Of a stretch of 64,000 nucleotides of DNA, positions 1 to 6,773 are shown one piece after another. Source of the DNA: Saccharothrix sp. HUAS TT1. GTDB lineage: Bacteria; Actinomycetota; Actinomycetes; Mycobacteriales; Pseudonocardiaceae. The DNA lies in contig NZ_CP160453.1 of assembly GCF_040744945.1 (NCBI RefSeq), positions 5,704,001-5,768,000 on the forward strand. Reading direction: 5' to 3'. Made by a program: the position numbers and the translations under genes. The notes beneath the pieces were generated by a model that saw only the letters and a list, made by a program, of their open reading frames with translations, was not told the origin of the DNA and did not search any database. The number at the start of each line of letters is the position of its first letter. Within the stretch, counting starts at the first letter, position 1.

Positions 1-778
1 GGGCGTCCCGGATGGACACCGGCGCCGGCTCCCACCCGGCCAGCTGCCCCAGCCGCACCACGGGCGGCGCGACCGGCGCGTCCGCCAGCACCGCGCCCGG
101 CTCGCCCACCACCGGCGGCCGGCCGCCGCCGGGCAGCCACACCACGCGGTCGGCGTACTGCGCGACCCGCTCCAGCCGGTGCTCGGCGATCAGCACGGTC
201 ATGCCCAGGTCGTGCACCAGCCGGTGCAGCGCGGCCAGCACGTCCTCCGCCGCGCCGGGGTCCAGCGCGGAGGTCGGCTCGTCCAGCACCAGCACCCGCG
301 GGTGGGCGGTCAGGGCCGCGCCGACCGCCACCCGCTGCTGCTGCCCGCCGGACAGCGTCGCCAGCGGCCTGCGCCGCAGGTCGGCCAGCCCCAGCAGGTC
401 CAGCGTCTCCTCGACCCGCTTGCGCATCACCGGGTTCGGCAGCGCCAGCGACTCCATCGAGTACGCCAGCTCCTCCTCGACCGAATCGGTGACGAACCCC
501 GCCTGCGGGTCCTGCCCCACCACGCCGACCACGTCGGCCAGCTCGCGCGGCGGGTGGTCGCGGGTGTCGCGGCCGGCCACCAGCACCCGGCCGGTGAGCA
601 CGCCGCCGGTGAAGTGCGGCACCAGGCCGTTCACCGCGCGCAGCAGCGTCGACTTGCCCGACCCGGTGCGCCCCACCACCAGGCACAGCTCGCCCTCCGG
701 CACGTGCAGGTCCACGCCGGCCAGCGCGGGCGCGCCGGCGTCGCGGTAGGTGACCGAGACGTCCTCGAACCGGATCAC
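1..778 (-). CDS. ECF-type ABC transporter ATP-binding protein (partial, C-terminus outside window)
   Basis: ATPase subunit that would power an energy-coupling-factor importer at the inner face of the membrane. Reading from the GTG at 778, the usual ABC motifs appear in order: Walker A GRTGSGKST, a Q-loop in VGQDPQAG, signature LSGGQQQRV, Walker B VLVLDEPTSALDP and the H-loop AEHRLERV. After one ATPase domain (about 230 residues) the frame stays open to the window edge, so a second fused ATPase domain is possible but not visible. The start overlaps the permease stop (GTGA), which shows translational coupling. The riboswitch-led operon context argues for a corrinoid substrate; the sequence alone would not give the substrate. 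Confidence 0.9.
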   Translation of the reverse strand, partial: MIRFEDVSVTYRDAGAPALAGVDLHVPEGELCLVVGRTGSGKSTLLRAVNGLVPHFTGGVLTGRVLVAGRDTRDHPPRELADVVGVVGQDPQAGFVTDSVEEELAYSMESLALPNPVMRKRVEETLDLLGLADLRRRPLATLSGGQQQRVAVGAALTAHPRVLVLDEPTSALDPGAAEDVLAALHRLVHDLGMTVLIAEHRLERVAQYADRVVWLPGGGRPPVVGEPGAVLADAPVAPPVVRLGQLAGWEPAPVSIRDA

Positions 779-1836
779 GCGTCCACCCCGTTCCTGGCGA
801 TCACGACGGGCGCCACCGCGCACAGCACGCCGAGCGCGGGCAGCAGCGGCAGTTCGGGCACCGTCAGCGGCACGGTGCCCGGTGTCAGCGCGGCGCCGCC
901 CAACGCCGTCGGCGCGAGGTAGGTCGCCAGTGCCGCGACCAGCCCCGACGCGACGACCAGCAGCTCGCGCGGACCCCACCGGTCCGGCCGGTAACGGCTG
1001 CGCCGCACCCGCCGCGACCCGGTCCACAGCCCCGCGACCGCCAGCACCGAGCCCGCCGCCAGCATCGGCACGCCCACCAGGCCCGGCGCGCTGCCGTCGA
1101 GCAGCCCGTACGCGCCGACGCACAGCCCGGACAGCCCGCCGAGCACCAGCGCGCCGGTCACCACCCTGGCCCGCTTCGGCAGCCCCGCGGTCCGGCCGTA
1201 CCCGCGCGAGTCCATCGCCGCCGCCAGCGCCAGGGACCGCTCGAACGCGTCCTCCAGCACCGGCACGAGCAGCACCCGCACCGCCTTCACCCCGCGCACC
1301 ACGTCACCGCGCAACGCCCTCGCCCGGCGCACCGCCCGCGCGCCCGCCACCAGCTGCGGCGCGACCGTCAACGCCACCACCACCGCCACGCTCACCTCGT
1401 ACAGCGCGGCCGGCAACGACCGCAGCAGCCGCTTGGCGTTGGCCAGCGCGTTCGCCGCGCCGACGCAGCACAGCAACGTCGCCAGCTGCAGCCCCTGGTA
1501 CACCGCGAAGGCGAGCCCTTCGGCGCTGACCGGGCCGCCGAGCCGGACACCCCTGGCCCAGTCCGGCAGCGGGATTTCGGGCAGGGTCACCAGCACCGTC
1601 GGCCCGCCGATGCCGCCCAGCAGCACGTGCAGCACCACCCGGATCGCGAGCACCACCAGGGCGAACTTGAGGAACACCCCGTACGCGCCGGCCCACGGGG
1701 TGTCCTCGCGGCACGACACGGCCACGTACCCGGCGACCGCGATCACCATCGTGAGCAGCACCGGGTTGGTGGTGCGGCTGGCGACGGCGGCCAAGCACAG
1801 CGCCCACAGCCACCACGCGCCGGGGTGCAGGCTCAC
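775..1836 (-). CDS. ECF transporter transmembrane (T) component, CbiQ/EcfT family
   Basis: Membrane coupling subunit of an ECF importer, 353 residues. The start is the GTG at 1836, overlapping the stop of the upstream secreted protein (GTGA). Several hydrophobic segments are clear, and the cytoplasmic coupling-helix signature appears as AAAMDSRGYGR, the Ser/Ala-Arg-Gly motif through which EcfT proteins contact their ATPases. The protein is longer than a typical CbiQ (about 250 residues): its last 100 or so residues add extra hydrophobic segments of unclear role. No S component is visible in the window; it may lie beyond the left edge. The family is secure. The substrate is inferred from the cobalamin riboswitch upstream. 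Confidence 0.85.
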   Translation of the reverse strand: MSLHPGAWWLWALCLAAVASRTTNPVLLTMVIAVAGYVAVSCREDTPWAGAYGVFLKFALVVLAIRVVLHVLLGGIGGPTVLVTLPEIPLPDWARGVRLGGPVSAEGLAFAVYQGLQLATLLCCVGAANALANAKRLLRSLPAALYEVSVAVVVALTVAPQLVAGARAVRRARALRGDVVRGVKAVRVLLVPVLEDAFERSLALAAAMDSRGYGRTAGLPKRARVVTGALVLGGLSGLCVGAYGLLDGSAPGLVGVPMLAAGSVLAVAGLWTGSRRVRRSRYRPDRWGPRELLVVASGLVAALATYLAPTALGGAALTPGTVPLTVPELPLLPALGVLCAVAPVVIARNGVDA

Positions 1837-2675
1837 CCGGCCGCCTTGGCCCGCCGACGCGCGGTCCACACGCCCAGACCGGCCAGCGCGGCGATCACCA
1901 CGACGCCGACGACCAGCCCGACCGCGCCGCCGGACGACGTGCCCGCCGTCGGCTGCACGGCGACCGACGTGGCACTCGTCGGCGCGGGGGAGCCCGACGT
2001 CGTCGCCGCGGAGGACGTCGACGGAGGCGGTGTCGTCGTCTCGGTGGTCGTCGTCGGCACGGGCTCCGACTGGGTGGTGGACTCCGTCGGCTGCGCGGGC
2101 CGGGTCGGTTGACCCGGCTGCGGCGCGGGCGGCGCGGGTTGACCCGGCTGGCCCGGCTGGCCCGGTTGGACCGGTTGCGCGGGTCGGCCCGGGTCGGGCG
2201 CGGGTGGTTGCGGCGCGGGCCGGGTCGGCTGCGGCGCCGGGGGCGCGATGCCGGGCTGCCCGCCGCCGCCGAACGCCCAACCGTCCACAGTGCCCGGCGC
2301 CGGGTCGTGCGCGGCGGCGCTGGTGTCGCTGTAGACCCACGACCCGCCGGGCCGGGCGTGCCAGTAGCCCCAGTAGGCCGTGGGCGGCGACGTGGTGACG
2401 CACGGGTCGCTGCCCGGCAGGCCGTTGATCCGGCAGACGAACCCCGGCTGCCGCGCGGCGAACGTGTAGCCGAACCCGGCGGCGGTCAGCGCGGCCGTCC
2501 CGCTGGCCGGGTCACCGGGCGCGCAGCCCGTCCGCACGCCGCCGCCCAACGGGCCGAAGTCCACCACCACGGTGACGCCCGCGCAGTCCGCGGCCTGGGC
2601 GCTCGGCGGGACGCCGATCAGCGCGAGCCCGACGACGGCCGCCGTCGCCAGGACCGCCCGCCACCGGCCCGTCAC
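1833..2675 (-). CDS. Secreted membrane-anchored protein with transcobalamin-C/DUF4430-like domain (SCO2322-type)
   Basis: Exported protein of 280 residues. An N-terminal signal peptide (to about residue 28, ending AQA) is followed by a compact domain (about 30-145) containing RINGLPG, YWGYWHARPGGSW and VDGWAFGGG. These spacings recall the beta domain of transcobalamin/intrinsic factor (PF14478, formerly DUF4430). Next come a Pro/Gln/Thr-rich linker (about 146-240) and one C-terminal hydrophobic helix with basic residues (WTARRRAK), so the domain would sit on a stalk outside the membrane. GTG start. It lies 46 bp after the alpha-barrel gene and overlaps the permease gene. The resemblance is by eye. 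The family appears to be the one named after Streptomyces SCO2322. A corrinoid-binding role is inference supported by the operon riboswitch. Confidence 0.7.
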   Translation of the reverse strand: MTGRWRAVLATAAVVGLALIGVPPSAQAADCAGVTVVVDFGPLGGGVRTGCAPGDPASGTAALTAAGFGYTFAARQPGFVCRINGLPGSDPCVTTSPPTAYWGYWHARPGGSWVYSDTSAAAHDPAPGTVDGWAFGGGGQPGIAPPAPQPTRPAPQPPAPDPGRPAQPVQPGQPGQPGQPAPPAPQPGQPTRPAQPTESTTQSEPVPTTTTETTTPPPSTSSAATTSGSPAPTSATSVAVQPTAGTSSGGAVGLVVGVVVIAALAGLGVWTARRRAKAAG

Positions 2676-2721
2676 GGCGCGGTGCGGTCGAGGGGGCCGG
2701 CCGCCGTCGTGCGCCGTGCCG

Positions 2722-4041
2722 TCACCTGCCCGCCCCCGCGTGCCGCTTGCGCGCCAGCACGACCGCGAGCACGCCGCCCACCAGCAGCAGCACGCCCATC
2801 CACAGCGCCGGGCCGACCGAGGCGCCGGTGCGGGCCAGGTTGCCGTGACCGGCCACCGCGACCACGACCGCCGTCGTGGTGCTCGTGGCCGTGCTCGTGT
2901 CGGCGGTGGTGGTCGTCGCCTCGGTCGTGGTCGTCGTGGCGGTGGTCGTCGTGGTCGTGGTCTCCGAGCTGGTCGACGTCGGCGGGACGTCCGCGCAGTC
3001 GAGCACCGGCGCGCCCGGCGTGCCGCCCTCCGCCGTCAGGTCCGCGAAGTTGACGCCGACCAGCCCGAGGACGCCCTGCGCGCTCGCGCGCAGCGACGTG
3101 GCCCGCTGGAAACCCGCCTTGTCGAACGCGATCGCGCCCCGGTCCGCCGCCGCGGCCGCGCAGCCGACCCGCACCGACGTCAGGAACCCCGCCGCCCGGT
3201 CCGCCTCGGCCGTCCGGCCGCCCGCGCGCAACGCCTGCGCCGCGAGGCCGGTGCTGTTGGCGTTGCCCTCGTCGGTCGCGCCCTGGTCGCGGAACCCGCC
3301 GCCGGGCTGCTGCACGCCGGCCAGCCAGTCGAGGGCCCGGTCCGCCTCGGCGGTCCGGTCGACCGCCAGCAGCGCCTGCGCGACCATCGCGGTGGCGTCC
3401 ACGTGGGACGCGCAGGTCTCGGCCTCCAGGATCAGCGGGAAGCCGCCGTCCGCGCACTGCTCGCCGACGAGGTAGTCGACCGCGGCCCGCGGCGCGCCGT
3501 CCCACCGGTCCAGCGCCAGCACCGCGAACGCCTGGGTGAAGCCGTTGGAGTAGTCGGTGTACCGCGTCTTGTCGCGGAACCGGCCGGACGGGTCCTGCAA
3601 CGCCGTCAGGTCGGCGATCAGGTCGACGCCGCCGAAGCTCGTCGGGTCCTGCCCGTGCACCTGCACGCCGAGCGCGAGCTTGGCGTGCGCGCCCGCGAAC
3701 GACTCGGCCGGGTCGCCGAAGTGCAGGTAGTTGTCCATGATGGCCGGTTCGGCGAGCCAGGCGGCGATGCCGTCGGCGTTGTCGGACGCCACGCCGGCGG
3801 CGGTCAGCGCGAACAGCGCGTCCAGCGTCAGGCCCTGGTCGGGGTAGGCGGTGCCGTCCAGGACGATCTCCAGGTGGTCGCCGTCGACGAGCTGGCGGGC
3901 CAGCCACCCGGCGGCGGCGTCGCTCACGTCCGCCGTCGGCGCGGGCGCGCCCTGCGCGGCCTGGCCCTGCGCGGTGGCCACCGACGCGAGGGCGGCGACA
4001 GCGGCGGCGGCGATGGCGGCGGCGGTCCGTCTCAACGGCAT
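2722..4041 (-). CDS. Secreted prenyltransferase/squalene-oxidase-repeat (alpha6/alpha6 barrel) protein with LAxTG wall-sorting tail
   Basis: 439-residue exported protein and first gene of the riboswitch-led operon. It has a signal peptide (about 1-31), then a run of alpha-helical repeats with QDPSGRFRD, CADGGFPL and QQPGGGFRD, the glycine-rich turns of terpene-cyclase/transcobalamin-like barrels. A Thr-rich spacer (about 355-395) leads to LARTG, a hydrophobic helix and a basic tail (ARKRHAGAGR). LAxTG is the class E sortase motif of actinobacteria, so attachment to peptidoglycan is likely. Human transcobalamin joins an alpha6 barrel to a small beta domain; here the two parts would be separate proteins. 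It is unlikely to be a cyclase because it is secreted and I see no DDxxD or DxDD motif. Confidence 0.8.
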   Translation of the reverse strand: MPLRRTAAAIAAAAVAALASVATAQGQAAQGAPAPTADVSDAAAGWLARQLVDGDHLEIVLDGTAYPDQGLTLDALFALTAAGVASDNADGIAAWLAEPAIMDNYLHFGDPAESFAGAHAKLALGVQVHGQDPTSFGGVDLIADLTALQDPSGRFRDKTRYTDYSNGFTQAFAVLALDRWDGAPRAAVDYLVGEQCADGGFPLILEAETCASHVDATAMVAQALLAVDRTAEADRALDWLAGVQQPGGGFRDQGATDEGNANSTGLAAQALRAGGRTAEADRAAGFLTSVRVGCAAAAADRGAIAFDKAGFQRATSLRASAQGVLGLVGVNFADLTAEGGTPGAPVLDCADVPPTSTSSETTTTTTTATTTTTEATTTTADTSTATSTTTAVVVAVAGHGNLARTGASVGPALWMGVLLLVGGVLAVVLARKRHAGAGR

Positions 4042-4084
4042 GTTCGGCCTTTCCGGGCGCTGGGCGCGAGCGGACCCCGGACAG

Positions 4085-4245
4085 CCGTCACCGACTTCCC
4101 CCGGGCTCCGACCCGTGACCTCGACGGTGTCTGGAGCGTGGCGCGCGCGACGGGTGTTCGGGCTCGTCCCGGTCGGGACCTACCGTTGCGGGTCAGCGCC
4201 GGACTTCGACCGGCTTCCCCCGATTCTCACGCGCGATTGCCGATC
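4085..4245 (-). promoter_or_regulatory. Cobalamin (B12) riboswitch
   Basis: On the minus strand, GGGGGAAGCCGGTC (about 4207-4220), then GAAGTCCGG, then CGCTGACCCGCAACGGTAGG (4179-4198) follow the conserved core of cobalamin riboswitches (GGGAA..GGT..A..CC and GCTG.CCCGCAAC.GT). A candidate 3' box, GGGTCGGAGCCC, lies near 4100-4112. It sits about 50-200 nt upstream of the ATG at 4041, within the leader of the four-gene operon, so adenosylcobalamin would be expected to repress it. The core is a direct sequence match; the outer boundaries are approximate. The element lies in the spacer shared with the divergent P450 gene. Confidence 0.88.
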
Positions 4246-5813: not shown

Positions 5814-6773
5814 ATGACCGGACGAGGCGTGCTGCGGGTGGCGGCGCTGGCCCTGCTGTGGGGCTCGTGCTTCCTGTGGATCGAGCTGGCCCTGACCGGC
5901 CTGTCACCCGCGCAGATCACCGTGACCCGCTGCGCCCTGGGCGCCGCCACCCTGCTCGTCCTGGCCCGCGCGAGCGGTCAGCGGCTGCCCCGCGGGCTCT
6001 GGGGGCACCTGGCGGTCGCCGCGTTCTTCTGCAACGCCCTGCCGTTCCTGCTCTTCGCCATCGGCCAGCGGACCGTCGACTCCGGGGTGGCGGGCGTCCT
6101 CAACGCGACCACCCCGCTGTTCTCGCTCCTGATCGGACTCGCCGTCGGCACGGACCGCGGCGTCACGCCGGTCCGGGTCGCCGGCCTGGCCCTCGGCTTC
6201 GCCGGCGTCCTGCTCATCTTCGCCCCGTGGCAGCACGGCGGCGCCGGTCCCGGCGTGCTCGCCCTCCTCGGCGCGGCGGCCGGTTACGCGGTCGCGTTCG
6301 CCTACATGGGGCGCAAGCTGGTCGGCAGGGGAGGCCCGGTGGCGATGTCCGCCGCCCAGCTCACCGCCGCCACCGTCCTGGCCGCCGTCACGCTCCCGTT
6401 CGACCGCACCCCGGCGACGCCCAACGCCACGGCCGTCGTCGCTGTGGTGGTGCTCGGCGTCTTCGGCACCGGCGTCACGTTCATCCTCAACTACCGGATC
6501 ATCGAGGACGAGGGCCCCACCAGCGCCGCCACCGTCGGCTACCTGCTGCCCGTCGTCTCCGTCGCCCTGGGCGCGGTCGTGCTGGACGAGCCGCTGACGC
6601 CGCGCGTCCTCGCGGGCATGGCCGTGGTCCTGGTCGGCGTCGCCCTCACCCGGCTCGCGGTGCGCCGGTCGACACCGGACAAGCGCCCGGCCGAGCGACC
6701 TGGGCATTACCAGTTGTCCGTTATGTCCACCGAGGGTGACGAGCCGCGCGGCCGTTCGGCCGACCACCGTTGA
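5814..6773 (+). CDS. EamA/DMT-superfamily transporter
   Basis: Polytopic inner-membrane protein of 319 residues with about ten hydrophobic segments arranged as two five-helix EamA halves. Characteristic stretches are LLWGSCFLWIELAL in helix 1, VLNATTPLFSLLIG at the end of the first repeat and YLLPVVSVALGAVVLDEPL in the second. EamA proteins export small metabolites or amino acids; this substrate cannot be read from sequence. I chose the ATG at 5814, where the hydrophobic N-terminus begins. A TTG at 5784 would add ten residues. The last 35 or so residues are hydrophilic and cytoplasmic. It is a single gene, with 115 bp to the next start. Confidence 0.9.
   Translation: MTGRGVLRVAALALLWGSCFLWIELALTGLSPAQITVTRCALGAATLLVLARASGQRLPRGLWGHLAVAAFFCNALPFLLFAIGQRTVDSGVAGVLNATTPLFSLLIGLAVGTDRGVTPVRVAGLALGFAGVLLIFAPWQHGGAGPGVLALLGAAAGYAVAFAYMGRKLVGRGGPVAMSAAQLTAATVLAAVTLPFDRTPATPNATAVVAVVVLGVFGTGVTFILNYRIIEDEGPTSAATVGYLLPVVSVALGAVVLDEPLTPRVLAGMAVVLVGVALTRLAVRRSTPDKRPAERPGHYQLSVMSTEGDEPRGRSADHR

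Follow-up and report, generated by a model that had tools for sequence, protein, structure and literature searches.

Gene content of the operon

The window analysed here is a 64-kb stretch of DNA (G000:C1:5704001-5768000) within an 8.7-Mb genome, and its closest protein relatives were found in Saccharothrix and Actinosynnema. At the start of the window lies an operon encoded entirely on the minus strand, in which a cobalamin riboswitch is followed by genes for a barrel protein, a beta protein, and the T subunit, double ATPase and S subunit of an energy-coupling factor (ECF) transporter. The riboswitch (4270-4132) matched RF00174 in an Rfam scan with 36.0 bits against a gathering threshold of 31.5 (E 1.7e-5), and was the sole match at Rfam thresholds within the window. 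It occupies the same place in related loci and ends 90 bases before the ATG of the barrel gene. An earlier reading made from the DNA letters (hereafter the sequence-only reading) had put a cobalamin riboswitch at the head of the operon, which this match bears out, the end noted at that time (4245) being 25 bases short. Folding of the leader gave neither a clear terminator nor a blocked ribosome site.

The first two genes encode predicted secreted proteins, namely a SCO2321-like toroid (barrel) protein of 439 aa (4041-2722; open reading frame and AlphaFold2 model) and a SCO2322-like beta protein of 280 aa (2675-1833; open reading frame), within which a transcobalamin-beta-like domain was placed at 2591-2256 by predicted structure. 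These are followed by a CbiQ-like T subunit (1836-775), which matched PF02361 CbiQ with 33.3 bits (cut-off 25), and by an ATPase containing two PF00005 (ABC_tran) stretches in one 533-aa protein (778-1 in the window, G000:C1:5703177-5704778 as a whole). An S subunit of 275 aa is encoded directly after the ATPase, beyond the window edge (G000:C1:5702353-5703180). If GTG starts are assumed, the T, ATPase and S genes each overlap the preceding gene by 4 bases. Thus, the Rfam and Pfam matches and the open reading frames confirmed the content already given by the sequence-only reading, i.e. a riboswitch, two surface proteins, an ECF T component and an ATPase. That reading listed no S component; the operon does encode an S subunit, and the surface proteins are therefore additional to it and no substitute for it. 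With a T subunit, a double ATPase and an S subunit present, the operon therefore encodes every part of an ECF transporter and two surface proteins besides.

The operon's own S protein gave no match in the Pfam scan. Among 25 S-family relatives that are 52-82% identical to it, 19 matched PF12822 at E<=1 (best 5.3e-9). A search of the PDB sequences with the S-family profile (A6) gave no match to an S subunit, and a distant relation to CbrT is possible.

Folds of the two surface proteins

The beta protein consists of a transcobalamin-beta-like beta-grasp domain, a proline/threonine-rich stretch and a C-terminal hydrophobic segment, the last of which is kept in 118/120 beta homologs listed. Its best named family is NF040672 SCO2322_fam, at 24.1 bits below the curated cut-off of 85. 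A PDB sequence search gave no useful match for the beta protein itself or for the family profiles A1 and A5. Structure comparison of the predicted model, however, assigned the beta domain to the transcobalamin-beta-like fold, and among its matches to transcobalamin, haptocorrin and intrinsic factor, every ligand-naming title names a cobalamin. Profile comparison with hhalign of the wide beta family against DUF4430 gave 94.2% (P 1.1e-7), against 0.2% and 0.1% for controls. These data suggest that the beta family is related at profile level, via the wide family, to the transcobalamin-like SLBB/DUF4430 clade, and the model supports a transcobalamin-beta-like fold for the beta half. Many beta relatives bear precomputed PF28005.1, which was not reported in our Pfam scans of the window protein and the family.

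The barrel protein matched PF00432 weakly (20.8 bits, cut-off 26.5), and its best named family is NF053823 SCO2321_fam (98.1 bits, below the curated cut-off of 300). Its AlphaFold2 model, with a predicted local distance difference test score of 96.8 over residues 26-349, is that of an alpha6/alpha6 toroid. Among the structure matches listed, the solved structures nearest to the model are type II terpene cyclases, with GH76 and epimerase barrels also present. The sequence-only reading had described a transcobalamin-type alpha barrel; the alpha/alpha toroid stands in the model, but the nearest listed structures are terpene cyclases. The protein has a hydrophobic N-terminus and a C-terminal LARTG-like motif followed by a hydrophobic stretch, and an LxxTG-like motif is present in 78/120 barrel homologs listed. 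Class E sortases recognise LAxTG. A DVDATA-like stretch was weighed as a terpene-cyclase acid motif and set aside; because similar D..TA-like stretches also recur in fused toroids, we make no catalytic claim for the barrel. Its VDATAM stretch presumably resembles the signature of animal cobalamin binders.

Conservation of the operon in Actinomycetota

In a genome collection that represents each species once, 374 beta-protein relatives were found, and the loci of the best 80 of these were surveyed, in records that include Saccharothrix, Lentzea, Actinokineospora, Micromonospora, Streptomyces, Kitasatospora, Phycicoccus, Frankiales, Microthrixaceae and Nitriliruptoraceae. Riboswitches from these operons, 22 in number and all but one belonging to the 80 surveyed loci, served to build a covariance model (R1); the matches at L049 (core missing from the sequence) and L023 were left out. 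In 75/80 loci, R1 matched a riboswitch on the same strand at most 3.2 kb upstream of the beta domain, a count that is partly circular given that 21 of the surveyed loci supplied training sequences. The five R1-negative loci are L031, L048, L051, L055 and L086; in L048, L051 and L086 the contig breaks off ahead of the beta domain, at a distance of 1628, 21 and 43 bases, respectively. Outside the R1 training set, 18 of the 59 loci were scanned at Rfam cut-offs, and a B12 riboswitch was found there in 14 (13 RF00174, 1 RF01689), with L022, L027, L028 and L036 lacking one. The RF01689 (AdoCbl-II) match is the operon riboswitch of L015 from Lentzea (6221-6292), which did not match RF00174. The co-occurrence survey proposed by the sequence-only reading therefore agrees with a B12 riboswitch at most of these operons. 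At genome level, where RF00174 matches were assigned to loci by contig coordinates alone, 46 of the 48 loci searched have a match somewhere in the genome at E<=0.001, 42 of them over the cut-off.

The gene order is conserved as well. Both the riboswitch and the barrel lie upstream of the beta gene in 72/80 loci, a T subunit is present in 70/80 and an ATPase in 67/80, and T, ATPase and S are all present in the stretch covered in 60/80. Some loci have two units, tandem beta gene pairs or divergent riboswitches. Divergent riboswitch pairs driving two units were seen in L047, L059, L060, L062, L063, L073, L074, L079, L082, L085 and L087; one of the units has ECF genes except in L082, which is on a short contig, and the other unit of L087 is without a barrel. 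While the window proteins are encoded by two genes (4041-2722 and 2675-1833) and not as a single alpha + beta chain as in animal transcobalamin, single-frame beta-toroid-toroid fusions, with the beta domain first, occur in L040, L042, L043, L069, L073 and L083. These fused proteins end in a C-terminal hydrophobic stretch and their clusters are riboswitch-led; the frame of L042 spans a masked run.

Linkage was examined in 296 Actinomycetota genomes, which, judging by their shared identifiers, were the same for the beta, PF14478, barrel and S searches; these genomes are mutually related, so that Fisher statistics on co-occurrence overstate independence. Profile matches were obtained in 47 genomes for beta (E<=1e-5), 52 for barrel (E<=1e-15) and 77 for S (E<=1e-15). 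The S family was present in all 47 beta-positive genomes, no more than 12 kb from the beta match in 41, and a barrel match was present in 32 of the 47, within 12 kb in 31. PF14478 matched 51/296 genomes, only 1 of them in common with the beta profile, and the S family lay within 12 kb of PF14478 in 16/51 genomes (one or two PF14478 matches were entered per genome, those omitted coming from genomes without an S-family match). Either beta type was near the S gene in 56 of the 77 S-positive genomes.

Seven further loci (L145-L151) were scanned with Rfam. L149, L150 and L151, with a PF14478-type beta domain, carry RF00174 at 104-108 bits together with beta, ECF ATPase, S-like and toroid genes. L147, which belongs to the window's beta class, has RF00174 on the opposite strand and an R1 match of 56.3 bits upstream of the beta gene. 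In two of the PF14478-type operons (L149:10378-12987 and L150:4573-7254), the gene next in line to the riboswitch codes for a large protein with a PQQ propeller and DUF5719, which may be a further surface binder.

Proposed function and alternatives

With a probability of about 0.7, we read the operon as a system that captures and imports corrinoids under riboswitch control; its cargo probably consists of B12-type compounds. The direct basis is the set and order of its genes, the match to the riboswitch family, the conservation, the S-subunit linkage and the natural fusions, along with the modelled beta and toroid folds. From fold and context, we infer the ligand, its control of expression, the binding order, the mutual closing of the two proteins and the hand-over. 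At a low level of intracellular B12 coenzyme, the leader would permit expression of the operon, and two proteins would be exported, a membrane-anchored protein with a domain of the transcobalamin beta type and a toroid that is apparently wall-sorted. The beta domain would bind the corrinoid first and the toroid would then close over it, like the two domains of animal transcobalamin. The complex would concentrate the corrinoid at the membrane and pass it to the dedicated S subunit, through which inward transport would be driven by the T subunit and the double ATPase.

According to the excerpts considered here, the domains of human transcobalamin made as separate chains associate once cobalamin is added (PMC5599065), and cobalamin binds the beta domain first (PMC11107200). 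By analogy, the bacterial pair could work like such separated domains at the membrane, giving the corrinoid to the S subunit. Whether the pair is in effect a naturally split transcobalamin, i.e. two anchored proteins that clamp only around a corrinoid and form a ligand-gated carrier docking on a dedicated S subunit, we regard as a tentative proposal with slightly less than an even chance of being right. The split binder inferred in the sequence-only reading thus survives in part: the modelled beta fold, the riboswitch-led homologs and the ECF linkage speak for it, but an S subunit is present and the barrel is nearest to terpene cyclases among the structures listed.

Several observations weigh against a corrinoid capture system. 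PF14478, the profile with which the sequence-only reading proposed to check the likeness of the beta protein to transcobalamin beta, matches neither the window protein nor any of 64 family domains (0/64, E<=1), so that this likeness stands by predicted fold and not by that profile; moreover, the close beta family alone gave only 24.0% (P 0.00083) against DUF4430 in hhalign. The transcobalamin alpha domain is absent among the 50 structure matches listed for the barrel model and the 56 sequence matches of the barrel profile, and likewise among the sequence matches listed for the toroid of a PF14478-type locus. The beta gene has no adjacent barrel in L052, L084 and L087, although the genome of L052 has barrels elsewhere, and two of the 48 genomes searched (those of L048 and L055) have the operon genes and no RF00174 match. 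No RF00174 match was found in the PF14478-type loci L145, L146 and L148 either; L146 has a weak R1 match (20.7 bits), L148 has no ECF match, and L145 has only an ATPase match on the opposite strand about 6 kb away. Because of these three loci, the PF14478 type is not invariably led by a B12 riboswitch or adjacent to ECF genes. The commonest NCBIfam match of the S family is TIGR04518, 'folate family ECF transporter S component' (22/25 at E<=1, best 6.9e-7), to which the operon's own S protein scores only 11.8 bits (cut-off 60); because the S family mostly matches this folate family, the substrate of the S subunit is not readable from sequence.

A further difficulty is the host's own B12 metabolism. 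The genome has the B12-synthesis genes CobN, CobK and CbiD, which suggest that the host is a B12 maker, and its other riboswitch matches precede CobN (L007) and a chelatase-type protein (L008). A further riboswitch (L009:9750-9854; RF00174 26.4 bits, below cut-off; R1 87.8 bits) is followed by a FecCD permease and a binding protein (L009:9948-12762), a candidate second B12 importer. The synthesis genes and this second riboswitch-linked cluster make the need for the present system less clear. They would fit a cargo that is a B12 precursor or salvage product, such as cobinamide, cobyric acid or another corrinoid, with the operon complementing the FecCD-type importer, since two importers may divide substrates; cobinamide is also bound by transcobalamin beta, as stated in part of PMC5599065. 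We consider this unlikely, though the best of the alternatives: the sequences do not separate a precursor from cobalamin, and the beta fold matches cobalamin carriers.

Somewhat less probable again is that the toroid acts as a secreted enzyme, or in some other capacity, and merely shares the operon, with the beta protein alone feeding the transporter. The 72/80 loci in which the beta gene is preceded by both riboswitch and barrel, the beta-toroid-toroid fusions, and the toroid gene that accompanies PF14478-type beta domains in L149-L151 all argue against such a bystander. As for a metal cargo, CbiQ-type T subunits work with many ECF substrates, which counts against reading the operon as a cobalt importer. 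A cobalt module of CbiQ/CbiO type that is controlled by a B12 riboswitch and whose surface proteins bind metal is highly improbable: PF02361, which the T subunit matches, is named 'Cobalt transport protein', B12 riboswitches control some cobalt importers (excerpts of PMC2667541 and PMC4285132) and the structure match 3u7z bears the title 'putative metal binding protein', but PF12822 was found in 19/25 S-family members (E<=1) with no CbiM family among the 8 families listed, and the ligand-naming titles of the transcobalamin, haptocorrin and intrinsic factor matches all name a cobalamin.

Comparison with known systems

Corrinoid capture by such proteins is not a new idea, and the sequence-only reading was mistaken in taking the role as undescribed. 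In the passages considered here, Burroughs et al. 2007 (PMC1796856) described transcobalamin-like SLBB domains in bacteria, together with fusions to toroids and operons that also contain CbiO-like and CbiQ-like genes; the authors suggested that complexes form at the cell surface and proposed a role in scavenging B12 or its precursors. Those systems and ours have in common a transcobalamin-beta-type beta-grasp domain, an alpha/alpha toroid, secretion or anchoring, and ECF-type operon genes. In contrast, the same passages place that clade in low-GC Gram-positives and planctomycetes and, less frequently, in euryarchaea, describe toroid-SLBB fusion as common and note that key B12 enzymes are usually missing from the hosts, whereas the present family is from Actinomycetota, has separate proteins that PF14478 misses and occurs in a genome with B12-synthesis genes. 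Moreover, the word 'riboswitch' occurs 0 times in the portion of that text considered, while the operon here is riboswitch-led. Therefore, the general idea of transcobalamin-like B12-scavenging surface systems, predicted in 2007, is already known; the present analysis adds an actinobacterial family that PF14478 misses, the encoding of its two halves as separate proteins, a riboswitch at the head of most operons, a linked S family and the fusions. No paper that treats the two families as parts of a split transcobalamin was found in the CC-licensed PMC literature, subscription papers being outside the scope of the search.

Animal transcobalamin, haptocorrin and intrinsic factor are each one soluble chain delivering to a receptor, whereas here two genes encode two anchored proteins that would hand over to an ECF importer. 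Among bacterial importers, the SEED/Rodionov naming reportedly has CbrTUV with an 'additional lipoprotein component'. ECF-CbrT of Lactobacillus delbrueckii, a demonstrated carrier of cobalamin and cobinamide according to the excerpt considered (PMC5997447), is likewise an ECF transporter with an S subunit; in the present case, unlike that system, T, ATPase and S are encoded in one operon with surface proteins. SCO2321_fam (NF053823) and SCO2322_fam (NF040672), the best named families though both below cut-off, have names that give no function, and the reading offered here supplies a testable function for two actinobacterial families so far named only by Streptomyces locus tags. If it is correct, an ECF importer can employ extracellular capture proteins besides its S subunit. 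If the two proteins do form a split clamp, a two-piece ECF capture module would be widespread in Actinomycetota, here in a genome with B12-synthesis genes, and would be a bacterial counterpart to the fused animal carrier. The two transcobalamin-type modules are seen both as separate partners and as fusions in one bacterial phylum, which bears on the origin of the animal carrier, and the pair would offer a putative natural split corrinoid binder.

Next to the operon, a cytochrome P450 gene (PF00067; 4349-5608, plus strand), for which no operon link was seen, starts about 80 bases from the riboswitch.
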